Part shown: in pieces, positions 4,545 through 52,790 of the stretch | Position numbering within the stretch: position 1 is the first letter of the stretch | Layout of the letters: every line of letters starts with the position of its first letter | Assembly (NCBI GenBank): GCA_029246505.1 | Contig: JAQWNC010000028.1 | Span: forward strand, 1 to 64,000 | Source of the DNA: Arenicellaceae bacterium | GTDB lineage: Bacteria; Pseudomonadota; Gammaproteobacteria; Arenicellales; Arenicellaceae | Length of the DNA stretch: 64,000 nucleotides | Reading direction: 5' to 3' | Program-made: the position numbers and the translations under genes | The notes under the pieces: generated by a model | The model's input: the letters and a program-made list of their open reading frames with translations, nothing else | What the model was told of the DNA's origin: nothing | Database searches by the model: none

Positions 4545-5008
4545 CGTGCAGTAAAAATCAAAATAACCGGATTAACCTGGAAGTATTGGATTTGAATGAC
4601 TATGCATTACCATTATTCGGTCAAGGTTTAGAAGATTAGAATGGACAGCAAGATAACGCCAATGCGTTTCTAGCATAAATTAATGAGGCCGATGGGATTA
4701 TACCTCCTTCGCTGAGCACAACGGCAACTATTCGGCAGCATGGGGAAATTGATTAGATAAGTGCTCTAGAATCGAAGGCAAGGTATTTCAAAATACACCG
4801 ATAGTGATACTTTCTACTTCACCGGGAGCACGTGGGTCGCATCATTAATAGAGTTGACTCTAAACTCGCCCCAAGATTTGGCACAGATATTAAGGCAAGC
4901 TTATCTATGTCCAGTTTTAATAAAAATTTTGATATTCAGACCGGTAAACTTACGGACCCGGACCTACAAAAAAAGGACCAACAAGCCGTAGCCAAACTGA
5001 TTAAATAG
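4545..5008 (+). pseudogene. Remains of an NAD(P)H-dependent FMN reductase gene
   Basis: Heavily eroded gene of the NADPH-dependent FMN reductase/azoreductase-like flavodoxin family. Readable pieces in shifting frames are LEVLDLNDYALPLFG near 4577, ADGII followed in another frame by AEHNGNYSAAWGN near 4710-4750, EGKVFQN, VILSTSPGARG near 4806-4833, and APRFGTDIKASLS to a stop at 5006-5008. The AEHNG and SPGARG motifs bind FMN in intact relatives. At least two frameshifts and several stops separate the pieces, and the N-terminus with its GxSN phosphate-binding loop is gone. It directly follows the glycosylase pseudogene on the same strand. Confidence 0.75.
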
Positions 5009-14445: not shown

Positions 14446-16113
14446 TTAATGAGCACGTTTACGGATAAAGCCAAGCAGCAGCACGATAATCATACCTAGT
14501 GAAAGTGCAAACCCCAGTAATCGCAATAACATCCATCTATCTGTACCTACCATCAAAAAAACACTACCTGCAAGGCCGCCCCATACTGGCAACTCTTTTC
14601 TATAATAGGCCTCAGTAAAGTACGGGTCGTAATCTACCCCTTGAGTCTTCGGCCAACCGTTTTCCTGCAAATATTCCTCATAAACGATGGCGCTAATATT
14701 TCCACCGGGACTAACACCATCGGTGGTAATCCCTTTCTCCTGATGATCGTGGAACAACCAAATACCAGAGCCATAAGAGTGCAGGCCATCGTTTGTGGTT
14801 TCCAGATCCAAATCAACTCGCTGTGCACTTGCAATCCATACTACATCACGGGTAACACGTGCTGCAGGGTTGGTTTCAACCCCATCCAAATGCGTCGTGG
14901 TTACTTTATGCCCATGCGTGTGCAGGGCGATGCCACTACTACCACCGTTGACGACACGTAATTTAATATGCTCGTTTGGTTTGGTAACTACTAACGACTC
15001 TCGAAAGGTATACGGGAAGGATCGTCCGTTAATAGTAAAGTAATCGCTTGTCGCGTCAGTTATATCGTAACGATTATGCATCTGTTCAGTTATTACACGC
15101 GGATCACTGGAGGCTTGAATTAAATTATTAAGTTCCCTGTCTATATCGAGATATTGCAAATCATATTCGCGATCAAACTCTTCAGCTACCGCCACAGAAG
15201 GAACCCGCACTTGGCCTGCACCTACATTGAGCGTTTGTAGCCAATTATCTGGTCTATTTTCTTCTACAATAAACAAGCCTTGCAGGCCCATCATAATATG
15301 TACCTGCGGCTGCACATGGCAATGATAAAACATAGTGCCCGTTTGTCGGGGCTGCATATCGTAAGTCCGTACCCCGCCGGGCATAACTGGTTGCTCGCTA
15401 GTTATTGGCACCCCATCATTCCCTTCGCCATCAGCGTCCACGAACGGATGATCCACACCATGAAAATGAACGGTATGCGGCATGTAGTGGCTATTTTCAA
15501 GCGTAATTTTAATCTTGTCTCCCTGCTCGACACGTATTGCGGGCGAAGGCACTCGTAATATAGATCGAGCTTTTAAAGACTCAAAATTCTCGGTTGCCAT
15601 ACCAAAAGTTTTTGGCACAAACACCCAAAAGCCGGGCTTTATACCTGGCGCGATAGCGTACTGGGCCGTAAGTTCATTTAGGTCTGGTGAACTACCATTG
15701 AGCTCGGCTACTTCTAACCGAATATGGATCTCATCAGGATCGCCATCACCATCCAGATCGCGCCCCTTTTCAACAGCATCCGGCGTTAATCCACTATCTA
15801 AAAGAACTTGCTGAGAAACATTATTTGTCCCTCGCACAAAGGCTGCAACTGCACTGGGATTGTCTGCTACACAGGTCGGCGAAGAACGAATATCCACGCC
15901 AGCGATTGTTTGGGCTTCACGCCAAGCTTGCAAATCTTCCGGGCACGCGACTTCACTGGCTAGCTCTGTTGCCGCCAGCGAGTTAGGCCGGGCGCGATAA
16001 TCCTGTGCACCAAACCAATCGCTAAACAGCAACCGAATGGGCTCGGGATACCATTGAGCTGGCAAACAAACTAGTGCAGAAAGAATGGCTATGAATAGCA
16101 ATCTTATACGCAT
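14446..16113 (-). CDS. Exported multicopper oxidase, two-domain type
   Basis: Multicopper oxidase of 555 residues with a signal peptide (1-20) and a C-terminal membrane helix (about 525-550). Copper ligands are visible: HTVHFH at 213-218 and YHCHVQPQVH at 263-272 in the first cupredoxin domain, HTHGH at 398-402 and HDH at 455-457 in the second. The only Cys-containing (type 1) site is therefore in domain 1, unlike standard laccases and CueO where it is C-terminal. A DLDGDGDPDE loop at 119-128 resembles a calcium-binding motif. The ATG is preceded by AGGAATAG. Likely substrates are Cu(I) or phenols; not determinable here. Confidence 0.78.
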   Translation of the reverse strand: MRIRLLFIAILSALVCLPAQWYPEPIRLLFSDWFGAQDYRARPNSLAATELASEVACPEDLQAWREAQTIAGVDIRSSPTCVADNPSAVAAFVRGTNNVSQQVLLDSGLTPDAVEKGRDLDGDGDPDEIHIRLEVAELNGSSPDLNELTAQYAIAPGIKPGFWVFVPKTFGMATENFESLKARSILRVPSPAIRVEQGDKIKITLENSHYMPHTVHFHGVDHPFVDADGEGNDGVPITSEQPVMPGGVRTYDMQPRQTGTMFYHCHVQPQVHIMMGLQGLFIVEENRPDNWLQTLNVGAGQVRVPSVAVAEEFDREYDLQYLDIDRELNNLIQASSDPRVITEQMHNRYDITDATSDYFTINGRSFPYTFRESLVVTKPNEHIKLRVVNGGSSGIALHTHGHKVTTTHLDGVETNPAARVTRDVVWIASAQRVDLDLETTNDGLHSYGSGIWLFHDHQEKGITTDGVSPGGNISAIVYEEYLQENGWPKTQGVDYDPYFTEAYYRKELPVWGGLAGSVFLMVGTDRWMLLRLLGFALSLGMIIVLLLGFIRKRAH

Positions 16114-16141
16114 CTCTATTCCTGTGTAGTTTTGGGTATAC

Positions 16142-16214
16142 AGTATTCCTTCTGTTCTATATGGACACTAAACACTCTGAATTCAATTAAGGCGCTGAAT
16201 TTAGTACATTAATA
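16142..16214. repeat. 73-bp dispersed repeat, copy 1
   Basis: This non-coding sequence recurs at 52589-52661 in the same orientation with 72 of 73 positions identical (the difference is A here, C there, in CTCTGAATT). It lies 28 bases before the multicopper oxidase ATG. Within it, CTGAATTC and GAATTTAG can pair as a weak 8-bp stem. On the minus strand TTGAAT followed by CATATA after 17 bases is a possible promoter. No open frame crosses it. Confidence 0.9.
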
Positions 16215-16873: not shown

Positions 16874-17007
16874 GTGATTACAATCTTAATGTAGGGAAGC
16901 TATTTGGTGCCATGCGCTCTGGCTATGGTTAAAATATATTTGTATTTGGACTCTAACCAAACAGTTTAATGAGCCCTGTAGGCCAAATTGAACTTTGCTT
17001 GCACCTT

Positions 17008-17355
17008 TTACATTCTACTATTTTGAACACGAACTCTGATAAAAACAAATATGGCTATTTCAGCCGTTAACATTGCCAAAGCAAGGCTATTAGAATTATC
17101 ACTCTTCAACGCTAGAACAACAAATATCAATGGGATTATTGAAGCAAGCAAAGAAATAATCGCTTCAGGAATTTGCGGATTAAAACGAGACAATAAAAAA
17201 CCAAATCCGTACGCAAATCCAGCAAATATCGTGATAACCATCATGACTCCAGCCGTACCGTAAACAGAACCAAAAAACTCAACTAACAGACTAGCGGCGA
17301 GCCCTCAAAGCATTGCTTGTATAAAAGCAACTATTCGCTTGCCGACAATACTCAT
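17008..17355 (-). pseudogene. Small membrane protein gene interrupted by a TGA stop
   Basis: From an ATG at 17355 the frame runs 116 codons to 17008, but codon 17 is TGA (17305-17307). Removing that stop gives one continuous protein with a basic N-terminus (MSIVGKRIVAFIQAML), a hydrophobic LAASLLVEFFGS segment and three to four further helices. The stop probably replaces Trp (TGG) or Arg (CGA). Translation could restart at the ATG pair near 17244, giving 78 residues with three helices, so a shorter product is possible. It begins 13 bases after the preceding 69-residue gene. No family recognised. Confidence 0.5.
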
Positions 17356-17368
17356 TTCCCAACCAGAT

Positions 17369-17578
17369 TCATTTCAAAGTTTGAATAAAACGATAAGTAA
17401 TGGCCAATATTCCGAACCCTACGTAGAAACCAATTAATGCTATTAGCATCAGCAGCATTATTTGAATGCTAACGACATTTTTGTAGCCTAGAAAAATTAT
17501 CAAAACCGCAAGACTGGTGAAAACTAAGGCAAAGCCGATAACGATCTTTGAATTTTTACTTTTAGGTTTTGATTGCAA
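17369..17578 (-). CDS. Small two-helix membrane protein, unknown
   Basis: Short protein of 69 residues with a basic N-terminus (MQSKPKSKNSK) and two predicted membrane helices (about 12-30 and 38-60). The start is a TTG at 17578 with GGAG nine bases upstream. The stop is 13 bases before the ATG of the interrupted membrane gene, so the two were probably translated together. The size and pairing recall accessory subunits beside transporters or oxidases, but I recognise no family and infer no function. Confidence 0.5.
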   Translation of the reverse strand: MQSKPKSKNSKIVIGFALVFTSLAVLIIFLGYKNVVSIQIMLLMLIALIGFYVGFGILAITYRFIQTLK

Positions 17579-17685
17579 ATTTACTCCAGCGCTATCGGAT
17601 TGCCTGGAACGACCAAATGATAAGTACAGACTACAAATTCAGGCAGTAGATGGAGCGAGTTATTACACCCGTTACAGCTCGCTTG

Positions 17686-18042
17686 CTAGTCGACATCGAT
17701 TTGTTTGATTGGACGACTTTGGTACATGATCATAGCACCAACCAAGTAGCAAAGATTTAGCCAGCTGGCCCACTGCAACCAGTGATCCTCGGTCAAAAAG
17801 AAAAATCCTATTGGAAAGAACGATAAGAAAAACACTAAGAATAGCCCCAAACTGTGGCCTTTGATAGAGACGATAATCGCCAGTATCGCGAGCAGGCTCA
17901 GTACAAATGCACCAGACAAAGTGATACCAGATAGTGACATCACAGATGCGGGCGCCCACATTGCATAACACCATATTGCAAACACCACGGTGCCTGACAG
18001 CACGCCAATCGACTGCCCGACCATAAAAATTATTTTGCGCAA
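17686..18042 (-). CDS. Membrane protein of unknown function
   Basis: Protein of 118 residues with four predicted membrane helices (about 8-28, 36-56, 60-80 and 92-110) and short polar loops. The last loop, TEDHWLQWAS, is Trp-rich. The C-terminus QSRPIKQIDVD is hydrophilic. It is followed, after 107 bases, by the 69-residue membrane gene on the same strand. I do not recognise a family. The region from 16.9 to 18 kb therefore holds three small membrane genes of unknown role between the copper trio and acs. Confidence 0.55.
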   Translation of the reverse strand: MRKIIFMVGQSIGVLSGTVVFAIWCYAMWAPASVMSLSGITLSGAFVLSLLAILAIIVSIKGHSLGLFLVFFLSFFPIGFFFLTEDHWLQWASWLNLCYLVGAMIMYQSRPIKQIDVD

Positions 18043-18282
18043 AATATTGTACCCATTTTATTTGTAGCCTGTAGTTTTGTAGACGTAAATTCTATGCCAT
18101 TAGCCAAGCAATTTAGAATGTAGATGGGGCAAGCGACTAGCATAAAGTGTAAGGCTTTTTTATAACCCCTAACTCCAAAGGCCCCCCAATGCCGCTAATT
18201 TACATGATAGATATATAAAACGAAACCAGCAGGAATCTAATCCAGTACTTTAGTAATTTTTTATAATCTAACTCACGTAGAA

Positions 18283-45158: not shown

Positions 45159-45903
45159 GTGAAACAAAGTAAAAATTATAAAGGTAATAGCTCTTTTCAC
45201 ACTAGTAGCACTACTTGGAAGAGTTTTCTACCTTCCACCACTAGGATAAGTAGAAATTTTAATTGGCTTGTGCATGCGCCATGTCCGATATGCCGAAAAT
45301 CCCAACAAAATTTATCTACAATCGCTTGTGACGGGTGCGCTGACAGCATTCAACTTAACGTCGCTGGCTGCGGTATCTGCAACGATCACATCGAAAGCGC
45401 TAACATTTTCAGTAGGTGTATTACTAACCCACTCTACTTTGATTGTTTAATCGCCACATGGCTATATAAAACTCCACTGGATATTTTAATTAGTAAGGCA
45501 TCTGGGGTACTCAGCGGTTCATTACCCTTTAACTAGTTATTCCCATAACCCTCCCGTAGGCTCTAGTGCCAGTAACGCTGCACGTGTGCTGTTTGCGCGA
45601 ACGTGGCTACAATCAGGCAAAACTTATAGCCAGGGCTATTTCGACAGCACCCGGTATACCTGTCTTCGAAAATATGGCGCGTAAAAAACACGCGACTCTA
45701 CCGCAAAGTAAGCTTGGAGTTAGAAAACGATTAGTCAGTTTAAAGCAGGCATTTTCAGCAAATAAATGGCCTAACATTGATCGTCTTGCGATTATTGACG
45801 ATGTCGCGACGTCCGAGGCAACACTAAATGAACTCGCCAAAACATTAAAGAACGTGGTTGATAAACAGGTGGACTGCTGATGTATTGCAAGGACAAAAAA
45901 ACA
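45159..45903 (+). pseudogene. Disrupted comF family gene
   Basis: A ComF/GntX-type phosphoribosyltransferase gene in pieces. From a GTG at 45159 with AAGGAGG upstream, 125 codons encode the N-terminal zinc-finger part (CPICRKSQ, CDGC, CGIC) and end in TAG at 45534-45536. The C-terminal half resumes in another frame near 45566: VTLHVCCLRERGYNQAKLIA, ARKKHATLPQSKLG and the PRPP-binding IIDDVATSEATL. Further on, KQVDC-TGA-CIAR shows TGA at a position where homologues have Trp. One frameshift, a probable deletion and one nonsense change make it inactive. Intact ComF aids DNA uptake in competent bacteria. Confidence 0.85.
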
Positions 45904-46206
45904 ATGAATTTGACTAGGGGACTTTATGTAAATGGTTTAAAATCAGTAGCTAACGAGATAAAGTTAGATACATATATTAGGAATGCTTTGATATTCACGA
46001 TCGCACCGCCCCAATCCTTAACGCCCCATGAAGAGCCGCGCGTTACCTTACGCTATTTTGGGGCCGACAGGTGTATGACCTTAAAAAGCCCCGCAGTATC
46101 GATTTACTTAAGCAAGCTATTACAAATACTGGTTAAGAAAATTTATACTCAAGAGCTCAATCTACAAGACATCGCCGTTAAATTAGGGCCTAACCGTGAT
46201 ATATAG
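45904..46206 (+). other. Unrecognised open stretch, possible gene remnant
   Basis: A frame from ATG 45904 (contiguous with the comF frame after its TGA) reads about 100 codons to TAG at 46204-46206. Its sequence (LTRGLYVNGLKSVANEIKLD, PRVTLRYFGADRC) has no family I recognise. Another frame over 46037-46128 also looks protein-like (LFWGRQVYDLKKPRSIDLL). Lying between a comF pseudogene and pilus remnants, it is more likely debris than a functional gene. Confidence 0.35.
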
Positions 46207-46873
46207 AATAGCGGCAGCAGAAGTATTAGTACTCGGTCAAAGCCCTAACCAAGCAGAGCCCCACCCAAGTTCTATAATTTCCGAAACCAACAAACGTAGC
46301 GACCTGCTTGCCAAATGCTGGGGGATCGATAGCTGGTGGGCGTTGGTAGTAGCTGGTGAAGAGTCGGGTAAACTCGGCACTATACTGGACCGAATAGCCA
46401 CATACCAGGAAAAAATGGAGGCTATAAAGAGCAAAGTGAAGTCTGCGTTGATGTCCCCTACAGTAGTGTTATCTATCGCAATTGCAGTGATCATTATACT
46501 GCCACTGTCCGTAATTCCTTCCTTTGAGAAAATGTTCAAAAGTTTTGGATCAGACTTGCCAACGTTGACCCAAATGATGGTAGATGCATCACACTGGGTT
46601 AGTTCGAATTGGCCATTCATGCTGCTTGTTAGCGTAGGTGGCTCAATGATTTTCTCATCCATCTGCAAGCGATCGACAAACATGCAATACACCGCTGATC
46701 GACTGATACTTAAAGCACCCATTATTGGTGTAATTGTTAACAAATCAGCTATCGTGCTAAAGCGTACTTCGCGCAGCAAACCTATTCCGTTTGGGCCATT
46801 TTTAGCATCTGGCACGGTAATAGCGCTGCTATGGGGCAACGACATCATCACAGCTTATTTAAGCACGCTGTAA
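46196..46873 (+). pseudogene. pilC fragment fused to the tail of pilD
   Basis: Open frame of 225 codons joining two type IV pilus genes. Residues about 47-187 match the middle of PilC, the inner membrane platform: WALVVAGEESGKLGTILDRI, EKMEAIKSKVKSAL, FEKMFKSFGSDLPTLTQM and LILKAPIIGVIVNKSAI. Residues about 192-225 match the extreme C-terminus of the prepilin peptidase PilD: KPIPFGPFLASGTVIALLWG. The second half of PilC and nearly all of PilD, with its catalytic aspartates, are missing, and no pilB lies upstream. The first 46 residues are unrelated. This is a deletion scar of the usual pilB-pilC-pilD-coaE order; the product cannot be functional. Confidence 0.85.
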
Positions 46874-49797: not shown

Positions 49798-52530
49798 TCA
49801 AGCCAACTTCCCGTGGCATTGCTTATACTTTTTGCCGGAACCACAGGGGCACGGGCTATTTCGACCCACTTTAGGTTGGTCACGCACCAGCGGGCGCATT
49901 ACGGATGCACCGGATAAAGCGCTGCTGGGCACATTAGCACTACCCATAGGTGCTGTAAGGGGCTCTTGCGCCTCACCAGATTTAGGGTGCACCATATGCA
50001 TATTTCGCTGTTGCACTTGGCGGCGTTCGCGCTCAGTGCGTTCGAGATCATCTTCCTCACGCAATTTTACGCGAGAAAGAAATATCACCACTTCACGCTT
50101 CACTCGCTCAAGCATCGCAGTAAACATTTCAAATGCTTCGCGTTTATATTCCTGCTTCGGGTTTTTTTGCGCATACCCACGCAACCCAATACCCTGACGC
50201 AAATAATCCATCGCTGAAAGATGCTCCTTCCACTGAGCATCAAGAACTTGCAGCGTCACAGACTTTTCAAGGTGCCGCATAAGCTCGTCGCCAAAGTTTT
50301 TGCACTTAAGCGCGTAAGCCGCATCAATGTGCTCCAATAATTTATCACGTAATTTTTCCTCATGCAGGTTGATGTCGTTTGCCAACCACTGGCGAACCGG
50401 CGTATCGACGCCGAAATCCCTTTTAAAATCCTGCTCTAATTGCTCAAGATTCCACTGCTCAGGCAAACTTTGTGGTGGAATGCTCATATTGACAGCTTGC
50501 TCAACAACTTCTTCGCGCATCTCTGCAACATTATCAGATACGTCGGCAGCCGCCATTAGTTCACGCCGCTCACCGTAAACCAGTTTTCTCTGTTCGTTTG
50601 CTACATCATCGTATTCTAATAATTGCTTACGGATATCAAAGTTTCGGCCTTCAACTTTACGCTGAGCATTTTCTATCGCTCGTGTTACCCACGGGTGTTC
50701 AATTGCCTCGCCTTCCTCCATACCAAGTTTTTGCATTAAACTGGATATTCGATCCGACCCGAAGATACGCATCAACCCATCGTCCATAGATAGATAAAAG
50801 CGGCTTTCTCCAGCATCACCTTGCCGACCCGAACGGCCACGTAACTGATTATCTATTCGGCGGGATTCATGACGTTCAGTACCAATCACATACAAGCCGC
50901 CTGCATCTAACACCTTTTGATGGCGCAACGCCCATTGATCTCGTAATTTGGCATGTTGGGATTCCTCAGCACCTTCTAATTCGCGTTCTAGATTTCCCCC
51001 CAAAACAATATCTGTACCACGACCTGCCATATTAGTGGCAATTGTAATAGCCCCTGGCGCGCCCGCTTGAGCGATAATATCTGCTTCACGCTCGTGTTGT
51101 TTTGCATTAAGAACTTCGTGCTTCAGGCCGCCTTTATCAAGCGCCTTTGACAATAGCTCAGAAACTTCAATAGATGCCGTTCCCAACAGTACCGGTTGGT
51201 AAGCCTTACTCCGCTCTTTTACATCTTCTGCTATCGCCTCAAACTTTTCTGCAATGGTACGATAGATCAAATCTGGCTGATCTATGCGTATCATGTCTTT
51301 ATGCGTTGGAATCACCACAACTTCAAGGCCATAAATCTGATGGAATTCAGGTGCCTCTGTGTCAGCCGTACCCGTCATCCCTGAAAGCTTATCGTACAAC
51401 CGAAAATAATTTTGAAAAGTGATCGATGCCAGAGTTTGATTTTCCTGTTGCACAACCACGCCTTCTTTAGCCTCTACAGCCTGGTGAAGCCCATCAGACC
51501 AACGTCGGCCAGACATCATACGGCCGGTAAATTCATCTATGATGACTATATGCCCGTCATCAACAATATAATCGACGTCTTTTTGAAACAAATTGTGAGC
51601 GCGTATTGCCGCATATAAATGATGAAGCAAAGCAATGCTACCGACGTCATAAAGGCTAGAGTCGTCCGGCAGTAAGCCCATACTCTCAAGGAGCTGTTCA
51701 GCCTTCTCGTGTCCGTCTTCAGTAAGATAGGCCTGGCGCCCTTTTTCATCAACTGAAAAATCCCCCGGTCCATCTTCTTCCTCTTGCTTTACAAGTTTCG
51801 GAATGACTTTGTCAATTTTTTGATAGAGGTCAGTACTGGTGTCTGCTGGGCCAGAAATAATGAGAGGTGTACGGGCTTCGTCTATCAAGATTGAATCAAC
51901 CTCGTCGACAATTGCAAAACCCAGACCACGTTGCGCGCAATCATTGGAAGAGAAAGCCATATTGTCACGTAGGTAATCAAAACCAAACTCATTATTAGTT
52001 CCGTACACTATGTCGCAAGCATATGCCTTTCGCTTCTCATCAGGGGCCTGTCCAGACTTAATAACGCCAACCGTTAAGCCAAGAAAGTTGTACACAGCCG
52101 CCATCCAATCAGCATCACGTTGAGCCAAATAATCGTTTACCGTAACTACGTGTACTGATTCTCCAGACAGCGCATTGAGGTAGGCTGGCAAAGTCGCCAT
52201 TAGGGTCTTGCCCTCGCCTGTACGCATTTCAGCTATTTTTCCGCTATTGAGCACCAACCCACCAACTAACTGTGCATCAAAAGGTCGCATCCCTAAAGAC
52301 CGTTGAGAGCCTTCTCTGGCTACTGCAAAGGCTTCTATCAATAGATCATCAATAGGCTCACCATTTGATACTCGGGTCCGAAAATTTTCCGTACAAGCCT
52401 TCAGTTGATCGTCACTTAAAGCCTGATACTTTTCTTCAAGTACATTGATCTGACTTATCGTCTTACCAAATCCACTTATTAGCCGATCATTTCGACTGCC
52501 TACAAATTTCTTGATTACTTTGGAAAACAT
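49798..52530 (-). CDS. secA: Preprotein translocase ATPase SecA
   Basis: Motor of the Sec export pathway, 910 residues (E. coli 901). Nucleotide-binding domain 1 has [17 protein letters not shown], and [20 protein letters not shown] (in pieces) is the Walker B and linker to the preprotein-binding domain. [19 protein letters not shown] and [18 protein letters not shown] belong to nucleotide-binding domain 2. The C-terminus holds the zinc ligands of [14 protein letters not shown], which bind SecB and lipids. The start at 52530 is standard ([16 protein letters not shown]). No secM lies upstream; instead a repeat and a hairpin fill the 260-base leader. Confidence 0.97.
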
Positions 52531-52588
52531 ATCTGTTCAAGTTTGGTAAATGACGTCGCTGTAACAATTTGCGCACTACATACTATAA

Positions 52589-52661
52589 AGTATTCCTTCT
52601 GTTCTATATGGACACTAAACACTCTGCATTCAATTAAGGCGCTGAATTTAGTACATTAATA
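52589..52661. repeat. 73-bp dispersed repeat, copy 2
   Basis: Second copy of the sequence at 16142-16214, with 72 of 73 bases identical and in the same orientation. It lies 58 bases before the secA ATG. Its right end, ATTAATA, is also the start of the large inverted repeat at 52655-52697. No coding frame crosses it. Function unknown: promoter cassette or small mobile element remnant. Confidence 0.9.
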
Positions 52662-52697
52662 GATGACCCAGATTACTGATCTGTGTCATCTATTAAT
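52655..52697. repeat. 19-bp inverted repeat in the secA leader
   Basis: Arms 52655-52673 and 52679-52697 pair over 19 positions with one mismatch around the five-base loop TACTG. No run of T follows on either strand, so it is not a standard terminator. It sits about 125 bases before the secA start and 94 bases after the M23 peptidase stop, and would fold in any transcript that reads from one to the other. Confidence 0.85.
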
Positions 52698-52790
52698 GGG
52701 TACGGATGGTAACCGCCTGTGCGGGGTTCCACAATGAAAAACTAGGCTGCCGAGCCCGTTTTAATTAGCACTAGAGCTAAAAACTGACCG

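Follow-up and report, generated by a model that had tools for sequence, protein, structure and literature searches.

Microhomology-mediated break-induced replication is known mainly from gene-scale rearrangements. Near-perfect hairpins have been described as products of template switching (Monttinen & Loytynoja 2022, PMC8794818), and so have the quasipalindrome mutations of E. coli (PMC7202029). Two further descriptions concern non-coding DNA and are used here as they are given in the citing papers, namely putative mobile promoters (Matus-Garcia et al. 2012, cited in PMC8049555) and intergenic-region switching (Oren et al. 2014, cited in PMC5890482).

The locus examined here combines a short intergenic repeat and a hairpin. 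Both were analyzed within the window, i.e. the whole 64,000-nt stretch of DNA under study, and by comparison with the rest of the genome and with relatives. The repeat is read as a one-off, lineage-specific short dispersed duplication produced by replication template switching, including a hairpin-forming fold-back, with a probability of about 0.6. The duplication is probably an ordinary single mutation, neither a mobile element nor a proven portable promoter, and most likely belongs to a known type of event. The case warns against assuming that a near-identical non-coding repeat must be a mobile element or a conserved promoter.

Two copies of an intergenic repeat

Positions 16142-16214 and 52589-52661 are identical at 72/73 positions in direct orientation, as the preliminary description had reported, and the match reaches 76/78 when the alignment is widened over the adjoining TATAxA (16137-16214 and 52584-52661). 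The copies start 36,447 nt (~36 kb) apart. Both are intergenic, sense-oriented and 5' of a minus-strand gene, in agreement with the non-coding placement given earlier, and the distances to the minus-strand starts had also been given correctly: copy 1 ends 28 nt before the ATG at 16113 of a multicopper oxidase gene, and copy 2 58 nt before the ATG at 52530 of secA. The presence of near-identical DNA ahead of two unrelated genes of one genome, at distances of 28 and 58 nt, is one trait of putative mobile promoters. Copy 1 contains an 18-nt tandem half-repeat in which AATTCAG occurs twice, and the corresponding motifs of copy 2 are AATTCAG and AATGCAG. By itself, the repeat folds no better than shuffled sequences. 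Elsewhere in the window, positions 16874-18280 form a stretch of ~1.4 kb without any ORF with a Pfam match; two small unassigned ORFs lie near 17672-18042, and the stretch possibly represents decayed or fast-evolving genes.

A chance origin of the match was ruled out, since a pattern of the 25-nt core allowing up to 3 mismatches matched twice in the window and never in 100 shuffles. The number of copies, which the preliminary description had left to be counted, was established by a BLAST-type search of the whole genome (2.64 Mb in 30 contigs, 97.5% complete). Exactly two copies were returned (E values of 3.5e-32 and 5.7e-31), with the third-best match (E ~1) taken as chance, and two sub-patterns searched genome-wide with up to 3 mismatches recovered the same two copies and none further. 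A separate non-coding direct repeat, 71 bp in length with 96% identity between copies 180 nt apart, was observed on contig C11 (108486-108736; L171:4486-4556 and 4666-4736), ~100 nt from a tRNA-Lys gene (L171:4832-4907).

The closest comparison is one genome of the same genus (the sister species), no conspecific genome having been found. Its orthologues are 83-88% (secA) and 80% (oxidase) identical to those of the window, and both loci are recognizable, with the repeat missing at each. In the sister species, 7 nt separate the oxidase gene from the ORF upstream of it, versus 169 nt here, and the secA leader is 167 nt versus 260 nt, a net difference of 93 nt. The corresponding oxidase gap is likewise short (up to about 100 nt) in the other relatives viewed and lacks the repeat. 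No significant match to the repeat was obtained in the sole other genome of the genus, among ~145 relatives, or in 109 genomes of the order; weak matches in relatives (E 0.017-0.06 over 145 genomes), each to a different short section of the query, were dismissed as chance. Exact repeat patterns were absent from IMG/VR and the exact core from GTDB genome contigs, both collections that may omit very near records, and the repeat was absent from the phages and plasmids searched; with no match, a phage, plasmid or viral source was rejected. From these comparisons the repeat is judged to be lineage-specific, because it is missing from the sister loci and from the oxidase gaps of relatives, and young, because the copies have diverged by only 1/73. 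Its absence from both sister loci and the single difference between copies support the recent duplication proposed earlier; strong selection, proposed alongside it, is not needed for a repeat that is lineage-specific and young.

Coordinates of the repeat copies, neighboring genes and features of the secA leader (positions in the window)
Feature	Position	Strand	Basis or remark
Repeat copy 1, likely donor	16142..16214	-	169-nt gap between upstream 196-aa ORF and multicopper oxidase
Repeat copy 2, likely recipient	52589..52661	-	secA leader, 72/73 versus copy 1
Multicopper oxidase gene, downstream of copy 1	14446..16113	-	ORF and Pfam/NCBIfam
secA gene, downstream of copy 2	49798..52530	-	ORF and Pfam/NCBIfam
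Hairpin CATTAATAGATGACACAGAT-CAGTA-ATCTGGGTCATCTATTAATG	52654..52698	-	19/20 pairs, 5-nt loop
Right arm	52654-52673	-	8-nt overlap with repeat
Left arm	52679-52698	-	likely native
Microhomology TATTAATG, 8 nt	52654..52661	-	fold-back arm and donor; proposed second switch point
Predicted inserted segment, right arm plus repeat, 85 nt	52589..52673	-	sister comparison
Conserved secA-leader block, upstream of insertion	52689..52742	-	78% over 54 nt versus sister

Hairpin and predicted insert in the secA leader

A clue overlooked in the preliminary description lies beside the secA copy, where a near-perfect 45-nt hairpin (52654-52698) overlaps the end of the copy by 8 nt. The sense strand of the leader reads CATTAATAGATGACACAGAT CAGTA ATCTGGGTCATCTATTAATG TACTAAATTCAGC, and the right arm finishes with the 8-nt TATTAATG, with which the repeat begins. 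The hairpin has a z value of -8.7 as DNA and reaches -22.7 kcal/mol as RNA. Its 20-nt arms are complementary at 19/20 positions, as a fold-back would leave them, and the 8-nt microhomology is present in both the arm and the donor, as a template switch would require. This anatomy of the junction, with two copies, a hairpin at the junction and 8 nt in common, is directly seen, as is the lack of the repeat at both sister loci.

Apart from 52654-52698, the 130-kb contig contains no hairpin whose arms reach 14 bp with no more than one mismatch. The background sample comprised ~230 kb of further genome stretches; in 160 kb of another contig there are two hairpins with arms of at least 18 bp, whose GC stems flanked by A/T runs look like bidirectional terminators, unlike the hairpin described here. 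The hairpin at secA ends on a repeat boundary. For one hairpin per 64 kb, the chance of coming as close as 8 nt to one of the four boundaries is roughly 0.001 by our own arithmetic, and higher if the count is restricted to intergenic space. Copy 1 has no significant fold and no matching hairpin, and the hairpin therefore does not belong to an element common to the copies. There is one mismatch in the 73 nt of the repeat and one in the 20-bp stem, values compatible with a similar age of the two.

Other functions of the hairpin were also considered. An intrinsic terminator was rejected since no T-run follows the hairpin, and the sole terminator-like site in the secA leader lies upstream (52757-52744). 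Rfam gave no gathering-level match in the window; matches below threshold at the secA leader were attributed to chance, and a structured RNA leader was rejected.

In order to place the insert, the secA leader was shortened by every possible segment of 40-169 nt and scored against the sister leader, blind to hairpin and repeat. The best-fitting removal (52594-52675, 82 nt, score 98.2) agrees with the predicted 52589-52673 to 2-5 nt per side and includes the right arm, the copied arm thus being missing from the sister species, while a near-tied removal (52569-52643, score 98.1) leaves the right arm out. As the sister secA leader has diverged, the boundaries of the insert are not unique. The first 10 nt of the left arm lie in the block aligned to the sister leader, and on that ground the left arm is taken as the probable native sequence, of which the right arm would be a newly made inverted copy.

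Proposed template switching and alternative explanations

We infer which switch came first, which way copying ran and when it took place as follows. During replication of the secA leader, the nascent strand would have turned back on itself and been extended by the reverse complement of its final ~20 nt, giving rise to the hairpin. A second switch via TATTAATG would then have led to the multicopper oxidase leader 36 kb away, of which about 65-70 nt would have been copied before a return to the secA leader, perhaps via TATA, beside which there is one mismatch. The oxidase copy would be the donor and the secA copy the recipient, an assignment based upon the hairpin and, weakly, upon the single mismatch in the AATTCAG/AATGCAG half-repeat. 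A single event of this kind would account for the presence and placement of the hairpin, the 8 nt of overlap, the insert length, and the absence of further copies. Against it stand the ambiguous boundaries of the insert and the unusual length of a 36-kb switch; in addition, the oxidase copy is not polarized by an outgroup, the sister species lacking the repeat in its 7-nt gap, and only one example was observed. Judged from the leader sequence, the event most likely lengthened the secA 5' leader by ~85 nt and added a strong hairpin, with a putative effect on expression. If read correctly, the footprint suggests that a bacterium may gain a hairpin and a foreign leader segment before an essential gene in one step.

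The duplication as such is certain, and it could have arisen by another route, such as insertion of a stray fragment or ectopic repair, in which case the hairpin would pre-date it or have nothing to do with it; the sister alignment permits other boundaries. This explanation appears unlikely, considering that the only long hairpin of the contig sits exactly at the boundary with 8 nt in common with the repeat, and that the best-scoring sister comparison puts the right arm within the insert.

Selected copying of regulatory DNA, in which a promoter or operator of the oxidase leader was copied and secA rewired through a mobile promoter or an intergenic-region switch, is doubtful and somewhat harder to sustain. 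The sense orientation of both copies 5' of genes, the tandem half-repeat of copy 1, and the presence in the genome of another modular, promoter-like dispersed family speak in its favor. However, neither copy has a sigma-70 match above shuffles. The TTGAAT-17-CATATA that had been put forward as a portable promoter scores 2.6 bits with the sigma-70 matrix, and the best candidates within the repeat reach 4.45-5.13 bits versus shuffle means of ~5.7 (sigma-70 only), leaving that proposal unsupported; a consensus promoter scan likewise found none within the repeat. Furthermore, the block upstream of the insertion that is conserved in the sister species can hold the native secA promoter, there are two copies only, and recent origin accounts for their identity without selection. 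This block (52689-52742) contains TTGTGG-17-TACCAT in both species (6.27 bits, no better than shuffles) and could be a candidate site of the native promoter. A combined explanation, in which a single serial template switch moved a working oxidase regulatory leader together with the hairpin to secA and the two genes are now co-regulated, is given still less credence; if true, it would constitute instant regulatory rewiring of an essential gene. Were secA transcription to begin within the copied patch, the locus would be a clean case of regulatory rewiring by replication error.

Two observations concern promoters elsewhere. The secA leaders of the neighboring genus (e.g. L021, L031, L034) contain a clear conserved TTGGAATTT...CCTTATACTT block well 5' of the start, also reading TTGGAATTT...AAAGCCTTATACTTG, which is not evident in the genus of the window; turnover of the secA promoter between genera is possible on this comparison. 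The modular dispersed family pairs a REP-like palindromic module (CCGCTATATACTCAAAGCGGTCATTCGTAATGTTAGAGATAA) with one that resembles a promoter (CTTATTGATTTAGG..GGTTTATGCTTCCTATACT), with 11 matches in this genome (contigs C3, C7, C18, C8, C23, C6, C10 and C1) and one weak match in the sister species. Nine of the 11 are sense-oriented and lie up to about 260 nt upstream of an ORF, making the family a better candidate for a portable promoter than the 73-bp repeat.

A small non-autonomous mobile element was also suggested earlier, and could be MITE-like or derived from IS200/IS605. It would fit the insertion-like absence at both sister loci, the TA-rich ends, and the hairpin adjoining one copy. 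This origin is very unlikely, with two copies only, no hairpin at copy 1 to match that of copy 2, no inverted repeats around copy 1 when arms of 8 or more were required, and no match among relatives, viruses, phages or plasmids. No Y1 (IS200/IS605) or DDE_3 (IS630) transposase was found genome-wide in a search limited to two families (PF01797 and PF13358). A check of the flanks for target-site duplication yielded the common ends TATAxA/ATTAATA and no consistent duplication, and no convincing terminal inverted repeats common to the copies were detected, the hairpin of copy 2 being the only such structure.

Fold-back chimeras are typical of multiple-displacement amplification, and the sister and most relatives are MAGs, as this genome may be. 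An assembly or amplification artefact (a chimeric join) is nevertheless highly improbable, given the mismatches observed (1/73 between the copies, 1/20 in the stem) where an artefact would tend to identity, and given that native leader aligns with the sister on both sides of the secA copy. Despite their direct orientation 36 kb apart, the repeats are in practice refuted as attL/attR of an integrated element, since no integrase was found and the Pfam-identified genes of the interval are core (secA, argJ, prolyl-tRNA synthetase-like, purM/purN-like, clpA/clpS, purB-like, mnmA-like, monomeric isocitrate dehydrogenase, and coaE). At positions 45159-46873, several short ORFs follow one another, and the final one matches the C-terminal portion of type II secretion/pilus protein F (PilC-like); this region appears to be a pilus gene that has decayed or been frameshifted.

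Comparison with known systems

The repeat resembles MITEs and REP-like elements as a short non-coding repeat with a hairpin beside one copy, but differs from them in having two copies, no common terminal inverted repeats, and a hairpin at one copy only. As mobile promoters and intergenic-region switching are summarized in the citing papers, near-identical non-coding DNA 5' of unrelated genes in one genome is a common trait; unlike mobile promoters as summarized there, the repeat has no detectable sigma-70 promoter signal, two copies, and no sign of propagation. Similarities with microhomology-mediated break-induced replication, or serial template switching, would include the several proposed switches, an 8-nt microhomology, and a small duplicated patch. 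The switch distance of 36 kb is longer than in usual quasipalindrome events. With hairpin-creating template switches, the locus shares a near-perfect reverse-complement copy of a neighboring native stretch, presumably made from the nascent or complementary strand, and it differs from them in that copying appears to have produced a 73-nt dispersed duplication by running on to a second template 36 kb away.
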